Part shown: positions 41,074-64,000 of the stretch, piece after piece
Layout of the letters: each line of letters begins with the position of its first letter
Numbering within the stretch: position 1 is the stretch's first letter
Assembly (NCBI RefSeq): GCF_000423705.1
Contig: NZ_AUIM01000004.1
Coordinates: 310,001-374,000 of the forward strand
DNA from: Stappia stellulata DSM 5886
GTDB taxonomy: Bacteria; Pseudomonadota; Alphaproteobacteria; Rhizobiales; Stappiaceae
Reading direction: 5' to 3'
DNA length: 64,000 bases
Made by a program: the position numbers and the translations under genes
Notes under the pieces: generated by a model
The model's input: the letters and a program-made list of their open reading frames with translations, nothing else
What the model was told of the DNA's origin: nothing
The model's database searches: none

Positions 41074-42276
41074 ATGCAGCACGACGACGTGTCATCAGCT
41101 TCCGTGATCGCGCTTGCGGCGACGGGCGCACAATCGGTCGAGCGCGCGGACGCCTTGCGCGCGGCCTGGCCGGAAGGCCCCGTGCCGGACCTCGCCGAGG
41201 CCGAGGAGATCTGGTCGACAACGCGCACCGCCCCCGATGCCCTGCTTCTGGTCGCCGGCAAGGGGCCGGACCCGCAAGTCGTGGCCCGGATCGAGCGCTT
41301 GCGCGAGAGCATCCGCGCGGAGGGTGTCGACGTGCCGCTGGTGGTTGCCACCCGTGCGGGCACGGGCGCGGACACCGGTTGGAGGCGTCTGCCCGATGCG
41401 TTCCTCCCCCCGGAAACCTCGCCTGCACTTCTCGCCACCCGTCTGCGCGAGACCATCCGGCAGTCGGTGCGCATGGAGGAAGCCCGCCTGCGCCGCATGA
41501 CGCTCGGCGCCTTGCCGGGGGAAACCGTTGCAGCCCCTCACCGGCCCGGCGGACTGATGGTTGCGGGGCTTGGGCAGCAGGCGGGTGCCGCGCTCGAGCG
41601 GGCCGGCCTTGTCGCAAACCTGACCGGCGTGCTTGCGGCCGAAACCGTCTGTCGGCGACTACAGGAAGCCGGCAGTCGCGCCCTTTTCATCGACATGCCG
41701 ACGGCGCGCGCGCTCGATGTAATCGAACGGGTGAGCGCAGATCCGCGCCATGTCAGCCTGCCGGTGATGGCCATGGCCGAAACCGTGGAAGACATCGAAA
41801 CGCTCCTGGCCGCGGGCTGCAACGATGTGGTCCGGCGCGATGTCGCCCCGGAGGATCTCGGCGTCCGACTGCGCGCGCTTCTCGCCGCCGGCGCGCGGCG
41901 GGCGCTGTCGAATGCGGCGCTGCGCCGGTTCCGCGCGGTCTATCTGGAAGAGGAAACGCTGCTGTCGCGCGCCGCCCATGACGCCTATCTCGGGCGCCTG
42001 CGCGAAGCTTTGAGCCGACGCGGGCGCGTCCCGCTCCTGATGACGCTTGCCGATCTCCACCCCGCGCCGCTGCGTCCGGCGGCCGCCAACGACGATCCGC
42101 TCGCGCCGGTCGTGGGCGATCCTGTGCGCTCCACCCTCCTTGCCGCATCGCGCGAGGAGGATTTTGTTGCTAGGGTGGAGGAATTGGGCGACAGGATCGT
42201 TCTGCGCGACGTGCAGGCCGCCGCCGGCCTGACGCGTCGCGTCGGTGCGATCCTCGCTTCCACCAGCTTCGCCTAA
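41074..42276 (+). CDS. Protein with degenerate receiver-like domains
   Basis: A 400-residue protein. The part at about residues 160-275 resembles the second receiver of PleD: an alpha/beta pattern around LFIDMPTARALDVIERVSA, then PRHVSLPVMAMAETVED and GCNDVVRRDVAPEDLGVRLRALL. The phosphorylatable Asp pocket is not convincing. The first half (about 10-150) is another alpha/beta domain, also receiver-like. No GGDEF or other output domain is seen. It follows the adenylate-forming homologue by five bases and is likely part of the same operon. Function unknown; receiver similarity is by pattern only. Confidence 0.6.
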   Translation: MQHDDVSSASVIALAATGAQSVERADALRAAWPEGPVPDLAEAEEIWSTTRTAPDALLLVAGKGPDPQVVARIERLRESIRAEGVDVPLVVATRAGTGADTGWRRLPDAFLPPETSPALLATRLRETIRQSVRMEEARLRRMTLGALPGETVAAPHRPGGLMVAGLGQQAGAALERAGLVANLTGVLAAETVCRRLQEAGSRALFIDMPTARALDVIERVSADPRHVSLPVMAMAETVEDIETLLAAGCNDVVRRDVAPEDLGVRLRALLAAGARRALSNAALRRFRAVYLEEETLLSRAAHDAYLGRLREALSRRGRVPLLMTLADLHPAPLRPAAANDDPLAPVVGDPVRSTLLAASREEDFVARVEELGDRIVLRDVQAAAGLTRRVGAILASTSFA

Positions 42277-42349
42277 TCGCCGTGCGCGCCTTGCGTGCGA
42301 TGGCCCGAGGGACACCGACAAGCCGAACGGCCGGAAAGGACACAGCGGA

Positions 42350-43003
42350 ATGGATCAAGCAGACCCGATGCACATCGATATCGTCTCCGACGTCATGTGC
42401 CCGTGGTGCTACATCGGCAAGCGCCGCCTGGAAAAGGCGCTCGCCACCGTGCCCGAAATTCCGGTCAAGCTGCGCTGGCTGCCTTTCCAGCTCGACGAGA
42501 CGATTCCGCGCGAGGGCAAGGACCGCCAGAGCTATCTGAACGAGAAATTCGGCGGCCCCGATCGGGCCGAGGAAATCTATGCGCCGATCCGCGACGCGGG
42601 TGCGGCCGAAGGCATTCCCTTCGCCTTCGACAAGATCAAGGTGTCCCCCAACACGCTCGACTGCCACCGCCTGATCCTTTGGGCGCGCGCCGACAACGCG
42701 CAGAGCGAAATGGCCGAGCGACTGTTCCAGCTCTATTTCCTGGAAGGCGCGGATCTCACCGACCGCGCGACGCTGATCCAGGCCTCCGCCGACGTCGGCA
42801 TGATGTCGGATCTTGTGGCGGAACTGTTGCCGACCGATTCCGACATCGACAAGATCCGCAAGGATCTCGACAAGGCCCGCGAGATCGGCGTGACCGGCGT
42901 TCCGGCCTTCATCATCGACGAGCGGTTCCTGGTGATGGGGGCGGAAAAGCCGGAAACCCTCGCCGCCGCGATAAAGCACGCGCACGAGACGAAGACGGGC
43001 TGA
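42350..43003 (+). CDS. DsbA-family oxidoreductase (FrnE-like)
   Basis: A 217-residue thioredoxin-fold protein. The active site is VMCPWCYIGKRRLEKAL near residue 20, the CPWC form typical of FrnE and 2-hydroxychromene isomerase relatives. The helical insert and the cis-Pro loop (GVTGVPAFIID) follow. There is no signal peptide, so it acts in the cytoplasm. A GGAAAGGA lies about eight bases before the ATG. Substrate unknown. Confidence 0.9.
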   Translation: MDQADPMHIDIVSDVMCPWCYIGKRRLEKALATVPEIPVKLRWLPFQLDETIPREGKDRQSYLNEKFGGPDRAEEIYAPIRDAGAAEGIPFAFDKIKVSPNTLDCHRLILWARADNAQSEMAERLFQLYFLEGADLTDRATLIQASADVGMMSDLVAELLPTDSDIDKIRKDLDKAREIGVTGVPAFIIDERFLVMGAEKPETLAAAIKHAHETKTG

Positions 43004-43223: not shown

Positions 43224-44624
43224 ATGACGTTGAGACCCGACCCCACATTTCACGCGACCCCGAAACTCGCCATGCAGGCGCCGGCGGAAACGCTCGCCTT
43301 CACGCTCATGCTGAGCCCCGACGCATCGCAGCCGGACGGGCTCGCCGTCGTCGACGTCGATCCGAAATCGCCGAGTTACGGCGAGATCGTCCACCAGCTC
43401 ATCATGCCGAACACCGGCGACGAGTTTCACCATTTCGGCTGGAACGCCTGTTCCTCCGCGCTGTCGCCGCTCACGGGCCACGCCTTTCTCGAACGCCGCT
43501 ACCTGATCGTTCCCGGCATTCGCTCCTCACGCATCTATGTGATCGACGTGAAGGAGCCGCTCAAGGCCAAGATCCACAAGATCATCGAGCCGGAGGAGGT
43601 CTTCGCCAAGACGGGATACTCGCGCCCGCACACCATCCATTGCGGGCCGGAAGGGATCTATGTCTCGACGCTGGGCGGCGGCGGCAAGGACGGGACCGAC
43701 GGGCCGCCGGGCATCTTCATCATGGACTGTGAGACCTTCGACATCCTCGGCCGCTACGAGATGGACCGGGGCGCGCAGGACAAGCACTATGATTTCTGGT
43801 GGAACCTCCCGCGCGACTACATGATCAGCTCCGAATGGGGCCTGCCGCCGCAGTTCGAGAACGGCATCGTCGCCGAGGATCTCCTGTCGAACAAATACGG
43901 CCACAGCATCCATTTCTGGAACCTGCGCGAGCGGCGCAACGTCCAGACCATCGATCTCGGCGAAAACCACCAGATGGCGCTGGAAATCCGCCCGGCCCAC
44001 GACCCGGCCAAGGACTACGGCTTTTGCGGCGTCGTCGTCGACACCACCAACCTGCAGGGCGCGATCTTCACCTGGTGGCGCAAACCCGACGGCACCTTCG
44101 AGGCGAAGAAGACCCTCACCATCGATCCCCGCCCGGAAGCGGCGGAAAACCTGCCGCCGCTGCTACAAGGCTTCGCGGCCGTGCCGCCGCTCGTCACCGA
44201 CATCGACCTCAGCCTTGACGACAAATATCTCTATGTCGCCTGCTGGGGATTGGGCGAGATGCATCAATACGACGTCTCCGACCCGATGAACCCGACGCTT
44301 GCCGGCAAGGTGGAGATCGGCGGCATCGCGCGCGGCACGCCGCACCCGAACGGCAAGCCCTTCGCCTACGGCCCGCAGATGGTGGAGGTCAGCCGCGACG
44401 GCAAGCGCGTCTACTGGACCAACTCGCTCTATTCCACCTGGGACGACCAGTTCTATCCCGACGACGAGGGCGGGCAGATGGTCATGGCCCACGTCGGCGA
44501 GAGCGGCGGACTGACGCTCGCCGAGGATTTCTACATCGACTTCCCGAAGGGCTACCGCAGCCACCAGATCCGGCTGGAGGGCGGCGACTGTTCGACCGAC
44601 AGTTTCTGCTACCCCTCCGTCTGA
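43224..44624 (+). CDS. mtoX: Selenium-binding protein SBP56 / methanethiol oxidase
   Basis: A 466-residue seven-bladed beta-propeller protein. It matches the human SELENBP1/MTO family through most of its length: MPNTGDEFHHFGWNACSSALS, LIVPGIRSSRIYVIDV, HKIIEPEEVF, DFWWNLPRDYMISSEWG, GYRSHQIRLEGGDCSTD. Bacterial members are copper-dependent methanethiol oxidases that make formaldehyde, H2S and H2O2 in the periplasm; that role is family knowledge. The mature protein lacks a clear signal peptide here. A GGGAGGAG sequence precedes the ATG. The segment corresponding to the CSSC of the human protein reads CSSA. Confidence 0.9.
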   Translation: MTLRPDPTFHATPKLAMQAPAETLAFTLMLSPDASQPDGLAVVDVDPKSPSYGEIVHQLIMPNTGDEFHHFGWNACSSALSPLTGHAFLERRYLIVPGIRSSRIYVIDVKEPLKAKIHKIIEPEEVFAKTGYSRPHTIHCGPEGIYVSTLGGGGKDGTDGPPGIFIMDCETFDILGRYEMDRGAQDKHYDFWWNLPRDYMISSEWGLPPQFENGIVAEDLLSNKYGHSIHFWNLRERRNVQTIDLGENHQMALEIRPAHDPAKDYGFCGVVVDTTNLQGAIFTWWRKPDGTFEAKKTLTIDPRPEAAENLPPLLQGFAAVPPLVTDIDLSLDDKYLYVACWGLGEMHQYDVSDPMNPTLAGKVEIGGIARGTPHPNGKPFAYGPQMVEVSRDGKRVYWTNSLYSTWDDQFYPDDEGGQMVMAHVGESGGLTLAEDFYIDFPKGYRSHQIRLEGGDCSTDSFCYPSV

Positions 44625-44636
44625 CGCGTGGCGGAA

Positions 44637-45287
44637 ATGGACACGGCGGCGGCGCTCTGGGGCGCCGTCGTCGCCTCCGGCATCTATCACGGGGTCAATC
44701 CGGGCATGGGATGGCCGCTCGCCGTCTCCGCGGCCCTGATGGACCGCTCGCGCGCGAGCCTCTACAAGGCTCTCGCGGCCCTTGCCGGCGGGCATCTTCT
44801 CGCCATGACGGCGATCCTGCTCCCCTTCTCCGCGCTTCTGGTGCTGGTGGAATGGCAGCGCGAAATCCGCATCGCCGCCGCCTGTCTCGTCATCGCGCTC
44901 GGGCTCTATCTGCTGATCAACCGAAGGCACCCGCGTTTTCTCGCCCGCGTGCCGCCGACACGGCTTGCGCTCTGGTCCTTCCTCGTCGCCATGGCCCATG
45001 GCGCCGGGCTGATGCTGGTGCCGATCTATCTCGGCATCTGCCGGACGATCGAAACCGATCCCGGCCACGCCGCCGCCTCCAGCCTGATGACGGGCAATGC
45101 GGGCATCGCCCTCACTGTTGCCACCGCCCACACTCTCGCCATGGCCCTCTCCGGCGGCCTCATCGCCGCCGGCGTCTACCACTGGCTCGGCCTGCGGTTC
45201 CTGTCGAGGAGCTGGTTCAATCTGGATCTGGTCTGGGCGGTGAGTTTGATATTGGTCGGGGGGATTTCGCTGGGGTTTGTGTGGTGA
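44637..45287 (+). CDS. Multi-pass membrane protein next to the methanethiol oxidase
   Basis: A roughly 216-residue protein with about six hydrophobic segments: AALWGAVVASGIYHGVNPGMGW at the N-terminus, AALAGGHLLAMTAILLPFSALLVLV and TRLALWSFLVAMAHGAGLMLVPIYL follow. It resembles metal-efflux-type membrane proteins only in general layout (HGxNPGMGW, MAHGAG histidines inside helices). It begins at most 13 bases after the mtoX stop (GTG 44628 is an in-frame alternative), so it is probably co-transcribed. A role in copper supply or methanethiol/sulfide transport is speculation. Confidence 0.7.
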   Translation: MDTAAALWGAVVASGIYHGVNPGMGWPLAVSAALMDRSRASLYKALAALAGGHLLAMTAILLPFSALLVLVEWQREIRIAAACLVIALGLYLLINRRHPRFLARVPPTRLALWSFLVAMAHGAGLMLVPIYLGICRTIETDPGHAAASSLMTGNAGIALTVATAHTLAMALSGGLIAAGVYHWLGLRFLSRSWFNLDLVWAVSLILVGGISLGFVW

Positions 45288-45503
45288 GGGGTTGCAGCTA
45301 TGGTGGGTATCGGTAATTGTTTATAAAATGAGATTAAACTTCATCGGCGCACTGAAATCCATTTTCGATGACCGGCTAATTTCGGAGGGCGTAGTAGCTT
45401 GAACTGTTGCCTTCTCAGGAAGGAATACATGATTTTTGAAATATGAATTCCCAATGAATTTGGAAGCGAAATAACGAAGAAAAACAAACGCGTCAAAATT
45501 TGA

Positions 45504-47027
45504 TTGGATACTGTTGTGCGCAAAAATAATATTAAGACCATCATAGAAAAATCTGAATCTCTTTCTATAGAAGCAGAAAATTTACTTAACTCTCTCTCAC
45601 ATTTTGAAGACATTAACAGTCACCCCTTCGATGTGAAAAAGCCAATTCGAGGAACTGATAGTTCTGTATCACAAATTGTGTCTCGCATTCATTCAGCCGG
45701 CGGGATAATTACAGAATTCGATAAAGCCACTCGACCAAACCTCGCACCTCTTTCGGTTCTAGTTAATCTACAGAAATCACTAGAAGAAACGGAAGAAGCA
45801 ATCTTAACTATTATAAATCGTATAGAAAACATAAAAAATTCTCAAGGCGGCCTGCAATCTTTTGACTACTCAAGTTTTCATGCGCTCGCAAGAAACGGTA
45901 ATAATAACAATATGCAGGGAGAATTCAAAACCTTGCACAACACGTGCGAGTTGCTGCTGCAGCGATTTTTTGAAAGCCTTTTTATTCTTAAACCGCGAGC
46001 ATCGTACAGCTTCCAAGCTGCTGCGAATGCGCTGTCAACGGTCATTGATGATACCAATGATCAAATATCAACCCTCAAACAGTCCATCAAACAAGTCTCT
46101 GTCTCTAAGAGTAAAATAACAGAAATTGAAACGAATGCAGAAACTCAGTTTGCAGAAATAACGCGGCTTAAAAATGATGGTGACAATGATCGAAAAACAA
46201 TTTCAGAATATCTAGCGCAAGCAACGCAAGAGAAGGCATCAATTCACGCGATCTCTACAGAGGCTGAAAATCTACAGACATCAGTCGAATCATATCAAAA
46301 TATTTTCAATCAGTTCAAAAAACAAATTGACGAACGAGAAGAAAAATTTTCCACTGGAACAGCAAAGCTCGAAGAACTCATTAGTTCATTCGACAAGCAA
46401 CGAGAGGACGTCGCAAGGCTGATTGAGAGGTCGGAACAGATGCTATCATCGGCTACAGTTGCCGGACTTGCATCAAACTTTTCAAACATAAAGAATGAAC
46501 TCACTTCAGAGCTTCGATGGGCTCGTGGAGCATTTTACGTTGGGATCGTTTTCCTGATGATATCAGCTCTTCCGTTGCTGGCCTTTGTTACCCTGCCAAT
46601 AATTTCGCCCATACTTACTGCAATTTTTCCGAATTTGCTACTTTCCGCAGCAGATTTTGCGATTACTCCTGCAGACAGTGGCTGGAAGTACTTCGGACAA
46701 GTTCTTTCTCGTGTCGCAATCTTGCTTCCCGCGGCTTGGCTTGTCTCGTTTGCTGCAATCCGGCACTCTTCTTTGTTCAGGCTGCGAGAGCACTATGCTT
46801 ATAAATATTCCATGGCGGTTGCGGTTGAAGGTTTTAAACAACAGGCACCGCAATACGCGGAGGAAATCGCAGCGCTTGTTCTGGAGCAACTCGCCTTTAA
46901 CCCAACAGACAAGTTGGTTCCGTCGAAGGAAATTCGGGAAGGAACAGCTCCTGGCATTTCACGATTTCTTCTGAAGCACATCCGTGCTCGCACAGAAAGT
47001 ACAAAGTCCGCTGAAGAAAAACAATAA
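45504..47027 (+). CDS. Large coiled-coil protein with two membrane segments, unknown function
   Basis: About 507 residues. An N-terminal charged helical half carries long heptad-like stretches (ETEEAILTIINRIENIKN; TQFAEITRLKNDGDNDRKTI; NQFKKQIDEREEKFSTGTAK) predicted as coiled coil to about residue 330. Two hydrophobic segments follow, roughly 342-375 (YVGIVFLMISALPLLAF) and 400-420 (SRVAILLPAAWLVSFAA), and then a conserved-looking tail (SMAVAVEGFKQQAPQYAEEI, then ALVLEQLAFNP). Tail-anchored coiled-coil membrane proteins with a similar end occur in mobile gene clusters, but I cannot name a family. Codons are AT-rich (many AAA, ATA, AGA), unlike neighbours. Start is TTG; GTG 45516 is an alternative. 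Confidence 0.75.
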   Translation: MDTVVRKNNIKTIIEKSESLSIEAENLLNSLSHFEDINSHPFDVKKPIRGTDSSVSQIVSRIHSAGGIITEFDKATRPNLAPLSVLVNLQKSLEETEEAILTIINRIENIKNSQGGLQSFDYSSFHALARNGNNNNMQGEFKTLHNTCELLLQRFFESLFILKPRASYSFQAAANALSTVIDDTNDQISTLKQSIKQVSVSKSKITEIETNAETQFAEITRLKNDGDNDRKTISEYLAQATQEKASIHAISTEAENLQTSVESYQNIFNQFKKQIDEREEKFSTGTAKLEELISSFDKQREDVARLIERSEQMLSSATVAGLASNFSNIKNELTSELRWARGAFYVGIVFLMISALPLLAFVTLPIISPILTAIFPNLLLSAADFAITPADSGWKYFGQVLSRVAILLPAAWLVSFAAIRHSSLFRLREHYAYKYSMAVAVEGFKQQAPQYAEEIAALVLEQLAFNPTDKLVPSKEIREGTAPGISRFLLKHIRARTESTKSAEEKQ

Positions 47028-47084
47028 GTAGTGCAGTCGCGAGCATGGTAGGACTGCCTCCAGACTTGTGGTTCAGCCACAGCA

Positions 47085-47290
47085 CGCCACACTTTGCGCG
47101 CTTGTGCGTCTATTTCCACCTCGAATCGTATCAATCGGGCATCTTCCGTCAGCCGGTCGGTCGGAACGTGCGAGCGATTCTGTATTGATCTGTCCGCTGT
47201 TGGTGGTTACCGCTAGTTCAGCGGTGATTGTGTCGTCAGTATCGTAAGAGTGGTGCGACATACCTTTCTTGTCGGCGGCCTTATAGGCCG
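47085..47290 (-). pseudogene. Frameshifted remnant of an enolase 3' end
   Basis: Read leftwards, the frame gives [35 protein letters not shown]; the intact eno at 47823-49097 reads [18 protein letters not shown] and [17 protein letters not shown] at the same place. Four extra bases (a CGGT tandem at the SDR codons) shift the frame, after which [14 protein letters not shown] lines up with [14 protein letters not shown]. The similarity ends near the stop region. The copy is AT-richer and diverged, so it is an old duplicate or a foreign enolase fragment. It has the same orientation as eno and lies 0.5 kb beyond it. Confidence 0.85.
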
Positions 47291-47291
47291 C
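47275..47291. repeat. Perfect hairpin in the enolase remnant
   Basis: GCGGCC at 47275-47280 pairs with GGCCGC at 47286-47291 around TTATA, at the start of the remnant's similarity to eno. Marks the junction with the GC-rich part of the gap. Confidence 0.4.
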
Positions 47292-47440
47292 AGATCGTTT
47301 GGACACACCGCCCCCATCTGTGTCACACCGGACGCAGGCGCAGCCGGAGATCTGGTGTCCAATCGGTTCCAGAGCGGCGGAAGTCAGCGCGGGGCGAGCG
47401 GCAATCGCAGAGGATTCTCCCGACCGATACGGGTGCCAAT

Positions 47441-47822: not shown

Positions 47823-49124
<1,302 letters not shown>

Positions 49125-62849: not shown

Positions 62850-63887
62850 TGGCCCTGTCTTTCCTCATGTTTCGACGTCACACGGATTTCACCCGAACGG
62901 GAGATCCGTTTTCTAACAGGGTCGCGCGGAAACCGGGGGTTCTGCGCGGACCGGGCGCGAGGCGGTCGGTCGAACCACGCACCTCGCAATATCCCTGTAA
63001 GTAAACAATGAAAACGGATGCATATGCAAAGCCCAATCCGGAACTTTGCCATCTCCCCCGCATCGCGCCAGAAAAGAGCCGGCCACCCTTGACAGTCCCG
63101 CGCGAAAAACAGCCTCAAAAATACGCTAAAAGGCACATCTGAATCCGATTATTCTTTCATGATTTAATATAAGATCGAAAAGAAAGCATTCTCTCGAACA
63201 AGATATTCCATCCATTCATGGGGAATACGTCGTACATCGCCAAAAACATCTCAAGAGCCACCAGTGCCCGATGCCTTGACGGTCGCCACGCCAAATGCCC
63301 CCCGGCCCGGCAATGAGCCTGAATCTTCGTCAAACCGAAGCAAAGGGCCCGGATTTGCGCAAGAAACCGCCGCGTCGCGAGAATGGCGCCGGCGCGTTGA
63401 GACGGGTCGCCGCGCTCCGCATGGACGGCATTCAACAGTATTTGCCCATCCCGCCACTCGCGCTCGCGGGAAGTAGGCCGCACTGGAAAAAGTCGGGGCC
63501 GATTGTGTTTGTTTGCAACAATCTTCCGATCGAGGCGCCTGACCGCGCCCTGGCGCGTCGAATCGCCGTTCGCGGCCCGTCACCACAAGGACCGGCGTCA
63601 TTGCTGTGCGGTGCAGCAAACCCCCTGATGCGGCGACCGGCGAAACGACCCGCCGATAGCGCCGACAGCTCCCGTATCTCCTGAGAGATCAGATTAAAAA
63701 TACCGCTTAGTCAATTGATATAAAAAGACTTAATCTACCAGAAAATTTTCGACCATTCTGCCACCGTACTTGCAGCGCCGGCGAACGCACACGAAAACCA
63801 GTCGGTCCGGCTTGGAACAAATACCGGGGATGGCCGCTGCGAAAATTGATGAAAAAAACTTTTTAATACATTGATATAGTGGCATTT
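62850..63887. other. Roughly 1 kb noncoding region
   Basis: No gene can be supported. Several short open frames exist on both strands but none has a ribosome site plus plausible protein sequence. AT-rich patches at 63120-63220 and 63680-63890 may contain promoters for the flanking genes. No RNA fold recognised. Confidence 0.5.
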
Positions 63888-64000
63888 TTAGCTATTCGAA
63901 ATTTCCCGGAAACATTCCACGACATGGCGTGCGAAGGCGTCCGTCGCCTTTCCCGCCTTGGCGCCTTCCTTGAGGATCAGGTTATAGTCGCCGATCTCGG
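63888..64000 (-). CDS. C-terminus of a gene that continues off the window
   Basis: A TAA stop at 63888-63890 (minus) ends a frame open to the right edge. The last 37 residues contain EIGDYNLILKEGAKAG, then DAFARHVVECFREISNS. This helix-ending tail could be the end of a LysR-type regulator, but too little is present to assign. Confidence 0.45.
   Translation of the reverse strand, partial: EIGDYNLILKEGAKAGKATDAFARHVVECFREISNS

Follow-up and report, generated by a model that had tools for sequence, protein, structure and literature searches.

The window analysed here, a stretch of 64,000 nucleotides from Stappia stellulata DSM 5886, carries a lone AT-rich gene for a 503-residue membrane protein at a site between core genes where the cargo differs from genome to genome. 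We give about an even chance to the explanation that this single gene encodes a membrane-anchored conflict protein, most likely directed against phages, and belongs to the exchangeable cargo of a defence hotspot bordered by eno and a frnE-like gene. The hotspot with its exchangeable cargo is the strongest evidence and supports a role in conflict. The patchy presence of the gene, its AT-rich composition, the defence-type genes found beside some of its relatives, and the members on plasmids and viral contigs argue for the same reading, as does the pairing of a variable head and rod with a conserved hairpin module. Against an anti-phage role stand the lack of a match to any known defence family apart from the coiled coil, and neighbourhoods that show no clear excess of defence genes over control regions.

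The gene lies in an islet of distinct composition. GC is ~0.64 over the window and 0.39-0.46 at 45-47 kb, with 0.60-0.70 around it, which confirms the sharp fall at 45288-47060 noted in an earlier sequence-only reading, and the lowest-GC 1.5-kb stretches of the window all fall within this islet. The limits of the insert (~45288..47310) were set by comparison with an empty site in a sister species, G005, where a 219-aa membrane protein gene is followed after ~11 bp by DNA homologous to that at window position 47311, and where the flanking genes are 95-98% identical to those of the window. Within these limits the GC is 0.437, against 0.641 for the remaining window. GC is also lowered, to 0.54, over the last kilobase of the window (63001-64000).

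As that reading proposed, the GC drop holds a single intact large frame, on the plus strand; it missed a decayed enolase 3'-end fragment at 47148..47291 on the minus strand, which is the sole other feature of the insert. This fragment was found by tblastn as a match to Eno residues 352-399, over which it is 56-59% identical to the local Eno, and its best DNA match (74%) is in a genome of another genus of the same family. An enolase remnant of another lineage inside the insert is a possible trace of recombination at eno, and it suggests that the cargo came by this means from a donor with a similar site. Such recombination at a core gene would allow cargo to move with no integrase involved. No terminal or target-site repeats were seen at the insert junctions, promoter and terminator patterns near the islet were close to chance level, and Rfam returned no matches around it.

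Genome comparison within the genus reveals a hotspot at this position. The gap is bordered by the same two core genes in 14 of 14 genomes, as expected of a core hotspot: eno (47823..49097, minus strand) on the right and a frnE/DsbA-like gene (42245..43003, plus strand) on the left, the latter located by tblastn in 13/13 congeners. The gene had been described as alone between mtoX and eno. The right-hand neighbour is indeed eno, but directly to the left lies the open frame of the 219-aa membrane protein (44628..45287, plus strand), which follows mtoX (43224-44624) and, by genome comparison, forms the left border in the window and in three sister species. Only 4/14 genomes have mtoX and the 219-aa gene (43224-45287) within the frnE-like / eno gap, and this pair may in turn reflect a previous gain, or a loss, at this position.

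The survey of this gap that the sequence-only reading had called for turned up AT-rich cargo in 8 of the 14 genomes, largely of defence type, and none in the other 6; within the 6-6.6 kb fetched per genome, AT-rich inserts are confined to the gap. The cargo is of seven kinds, including immune-type genes by Pfam and PADLOC. Apart from the 503-aa gene of the window (G000), it comprises an HTH plus ImmA/IrrE-type protein (RmrA-like by PADLOC) alongside two small genes in G011; in G007 and G009, a ParA-like ATPase paired with another gene, the two ATPases being 34% identical; a GHKL ATPase with DUF4325 (GHKL/STAS-like) that matches part of DrmA in PADLOC, in G002; an OLD-family ATPase in G004; a 997-aa NACHT protein in G012; and, in G010, an AT-rich 256-aa protein (L057:4793-5563) with no Pfam or PADLOC match. 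The second gene beside the ParA-like ATPase is a RiboL-PSP-HEPN protein by Pfam in G009 and has no Pfam match in G007; this ParA-like ATPase plus HEPN-type pair, present twice in the hotspot (L066:3541-5023 and L061:527-2228), is a candidate two-gene conflict system.

The distribution of the 503-aa gene is patchy. It is present in one copy in its own genome, in 0/13 other genomes of the genus and in 4/61 genomes searched, its own included. The suggestion that it is foreign in composition and inserted beside core genes was borne out. Twelve orthologues, 35-66% identical, were fetched from alphaproteobacteria and a Rickettsiales MAG, with hosts including Mesorhizobium, Hongsoonwoonella, Pseudovibrio, Mameliella, Bosea and Hyphomicrobium; the copies from Hongsoonwoonella and Pseudovibrio are carried by the same-family genomes G024 and G018. 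A profile of the C-terminal module was matched in 7 of 398 Pseudomonadota genomes; of 385 genomes within the class it picked out 13, a few of them marginally. Relatives are mostly lone AT-rich genes between core genes and also occur in prophages and on plasmids, and 29 of 30 relatives elsewhere are more AT-rich than their own flanks (mean difference -0.145). One copy of the family, in G091, is interrupted by a stop codon (L089:5681-7164), which suggests gain and loss.

Patchy gain and loss of a lone AT-rich gene would also be seen if this were selfish or addictive cargo, toxin-like or serving element maintenance, that persists by transfer and protects nothing. The ImmA/IrrE-type gene set of one sister species could itself be a toxin-antitoxin system, in keeping with that idea. 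However, the gene has no recurring antitoxin partner next to it, almost every copy is intact, and the helix that follows the membrane segment is under strong constraint, and we consider selfish cargo quite unlikely.

A further alternative is that the protein derives from a prophage or plasmid and mediates superinfection exclusion, with an anchored rod that prevents DNA from entering or hides an inner-membrane factor that competing phages or plasmids need, and does not kill the cell. A pattern search found the same C-terminal module at 20 viral-contig loci, tblastn found proteins of the wider family on Vibrio plasmids, and one relative is found in a prophage, with replication genes on one side and terminase genes on the other, all of which would fit such a role; tblastn against annotated phage records returned no relatives. 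Most orthologues, however, are chromosomal and far from phage genes, and the other cargo in the slot of the window gene resembles intracellular immune genes, so that we regard superinfection exclusion as unlikely.

Returning to the conflict protein reading, defence-type genes lie near 7/30 relatives. One member is embedded in a type I restriction operon, in the order hsdM-RhuM-[gene]-hsdS-hsdR (L103:3982-5343), and another neighbours hsdM/hsdS and PtuA/PtuB-like, Septu-like genes (L010). The remaining cases are a member between NERD-helicase and OLD-like genes (L092), one with a KAP NTPase gene nearby, flanked in a prophage by gpA and terminase genes (L095), and members beside TIR (L009), DUF4238 (L006) and HEPN_Toprim_N (L008) genes. 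In a PADLOC scan, 313 models were matched among 136 neighbours, compared with 64 in a control set of 97 proteins drawn from 17 random regions, one retron accounting for most of the control-region matches shown. With samples this small the association is at most suggestive, and defence genes are not clearly commoner near members than in the 17 control regions.

The predicted anatomy of the protein separates a variable N-terminal part from a conserved membrane module. The full open frame (45504-47027) has 507 codons, as first reported, but the protein itself is 503 aa, with its start at the GTG at 45516, because in an alignment to 13 orthologues these begin at the residue encoded there; the coding sequence is thus 45516..47027 on the plus strand. 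Residues 1-160 (45516..45995) form a head domain, predicted as a four-helix bundle with a small beta insert when modelled alone (pLDDT 94, pTM 0.88). The coiled-coil rod of ~145 residues (166-311; 46011..46448), one continuous helix in the model, is followed by a conserved hinge (residues 306-335; 46431..46520) in which the model has a helix break and whose ATVAGLAxxF motif is kept across the wider family. Hydropathy and the model place membrane helix 1 at approximately residues 336-372 (46521..46631), and hydropathy places membrane helix 2 at approximately residues 391-412 (46686..46751). A post-membrane helix (residues 413-463; 46752..46904), RHSSLFRLREHYAYKYSMAVAVEGFK...NP, is by orthologue identity the most conserved part of the protein. 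The prediction thus agrees with the build proposed earlier in its coiled coil, its pair of membrane helices and its helical C-terminal region, but gives no ordered tail, as the last ~40 residues are mostly of low confidence in the model. The charge distribution suggests that both ends of the protein are cytoplasmic.

Mean pairwise identity among orthologues rises along the chain, from 29% in the head and 32% in the rod to 55% in the hinge, 69% in membrane helix 2 and 85% in the post-membrane helix, where E425, Y427, K430, G439 and P463 are invariant in 28 sequences. The wider family has a common module, in which a GLAxxF or SMAGSF motif precedes two membrane helices that lead into a helix of the form LFRLREHYAYKYSMAVAVEGFKKQ...NP, and its N-terminal parts fall into several groups that have no mutual BLAST match and sit on the same C-terminal module. 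This pattern is most simply read as a probable variable sensor joined to an output module that is conserved.

From this architecture and conservation, we infer how such a protein could act. The four-helix head and the rod would lie in the cytoplasm, where the head might detect a product or an effect of infection. A signal would then travel along the rod and across the GLAxxF hinge to the membrane module. There the two-helix hairpin, together with the near-invariant helix that follows it, would oligomerise and perturb the inner membrane, halting phage production. This last step is suggested by the architecture. The sequence-only reading had likewise imagined an envelope-linked sensor, possibly a phage-defence or toxin component.

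Database searches place the protein apart from characterized families. Scans of Pfam, NCBIfam and PADLOC gave similarity only to coiled coils, below cut-off or partial, and beyond the coiled coil the protein falls outside every Pfam, NCBIfam, PADLOC and PDB family. No PADLOC 2.0.0 defence model matches over its full length, the best (LmuB and JetC) being partial, on the coiled coil, at an E-value of 5.5e-7 or weaker. Scaffold families built on coiled coils, EzrA and taxilin among them, give weak profile matches, which raises the alternative of an envelope or cell-structure protein gained for an ordinary cellular task. None of these matches, however, reaches the cut-off or extends beyond the coil, and the gene is AT-rich, missing from all congeners searched and at unrelated sites in relatives, and we find this explanation improbable. 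Neither a known housekeeping fold nor presence in all relatives with ordinary composition, either of which would count against a foreign conflict gene, was found. Foldseek searches against the PDB (full model and head) and BFVD (head) returned nothing at E 0.001, and sequence profiles of the head and hairpin returned nothing significant against PDB chains; the lack of a match does not prove a new fold. VIA-align Z scores of the head were 9.9 for Rx-CC, 8.5 for MLKL and 8.4 for NRG1, and higher for IncA (11.3) and THATCH (10.7), values that helical bundles can reach by chance; the modelled likeness to HeLo, MLKL and plant CC bundles is thus not distinguishable from helical-bundle background.

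More tentatively, we propose that the conflict protein of the window belongs to a widespread, undescribed single-gene immune family in which a conserved hairpin-plus-helix effector and a rod are combined with exchangeable sensor heads, and which is found on chromosomes, prophages and plasmids of Pseudomonadota. If so, this would be a new membrane-acting immune family with swappable heads, the eno / frnE-like site would be a chromosomal address for undescribed defence genes in this alphaproteobacterial genus, and the other cargo of the hotspot, including the 256-aa protein of G010, would become direct candidates. In the literature covered, which included few subscription papers, we found no description of this membrane architecture or of an enolase hotspot.

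Among the closest known systems are two PHROG families without known function, phrog_30912 and phrog_34659, which share the coiled coil, two membrane helices and post-membrane helix. The first is matched by 17/17 family members scanned (best E 4.5e-59) and the second by 11/17, with the match to the window protein limited to residues 206-469 so that the head is not covered. SLATT / DUF4231 effectors of conflict systems also have two membrane helices followed by a charged helix; kinship to them is unsupported, with no Pfam match and an hhalign probability of 3.7% over 21 columns for the hairpin module against a small SLATT alignment. ZorA of the Zorya anti-phage system is an inner-membrane protein with a long cytoplasmic helical rod (PMC11890865) and may resemble the window protein in manner of working, a likeness of arrangement only. 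ZorA is MotA-like and works with ZorB, whereas the window protein has two membrane helices, a head and rod N-terminal to the membrane, and no partner gene. Membership in Zorya fails, as ZorA models match only the coil (E 0.09-1.1) and the insert contains no ZorB. As for the locus, Johnson et al. described core defence hotspots (cDHS) in Pseudomonas aeruginosa and suggested transfer via homologous flanks (PMC10250203). The site described here resembles a cDHS in holding exchangeable immune-type cargo of several kinds, alongside empty sites, between fixed core genes and without one mobilising element (PMC10250203), and it differs from those of P. aeruginosa in its eno / frnE-like borders, in usually carrying one or two cargo genes, and in the decayed enolase fragment within one insert.
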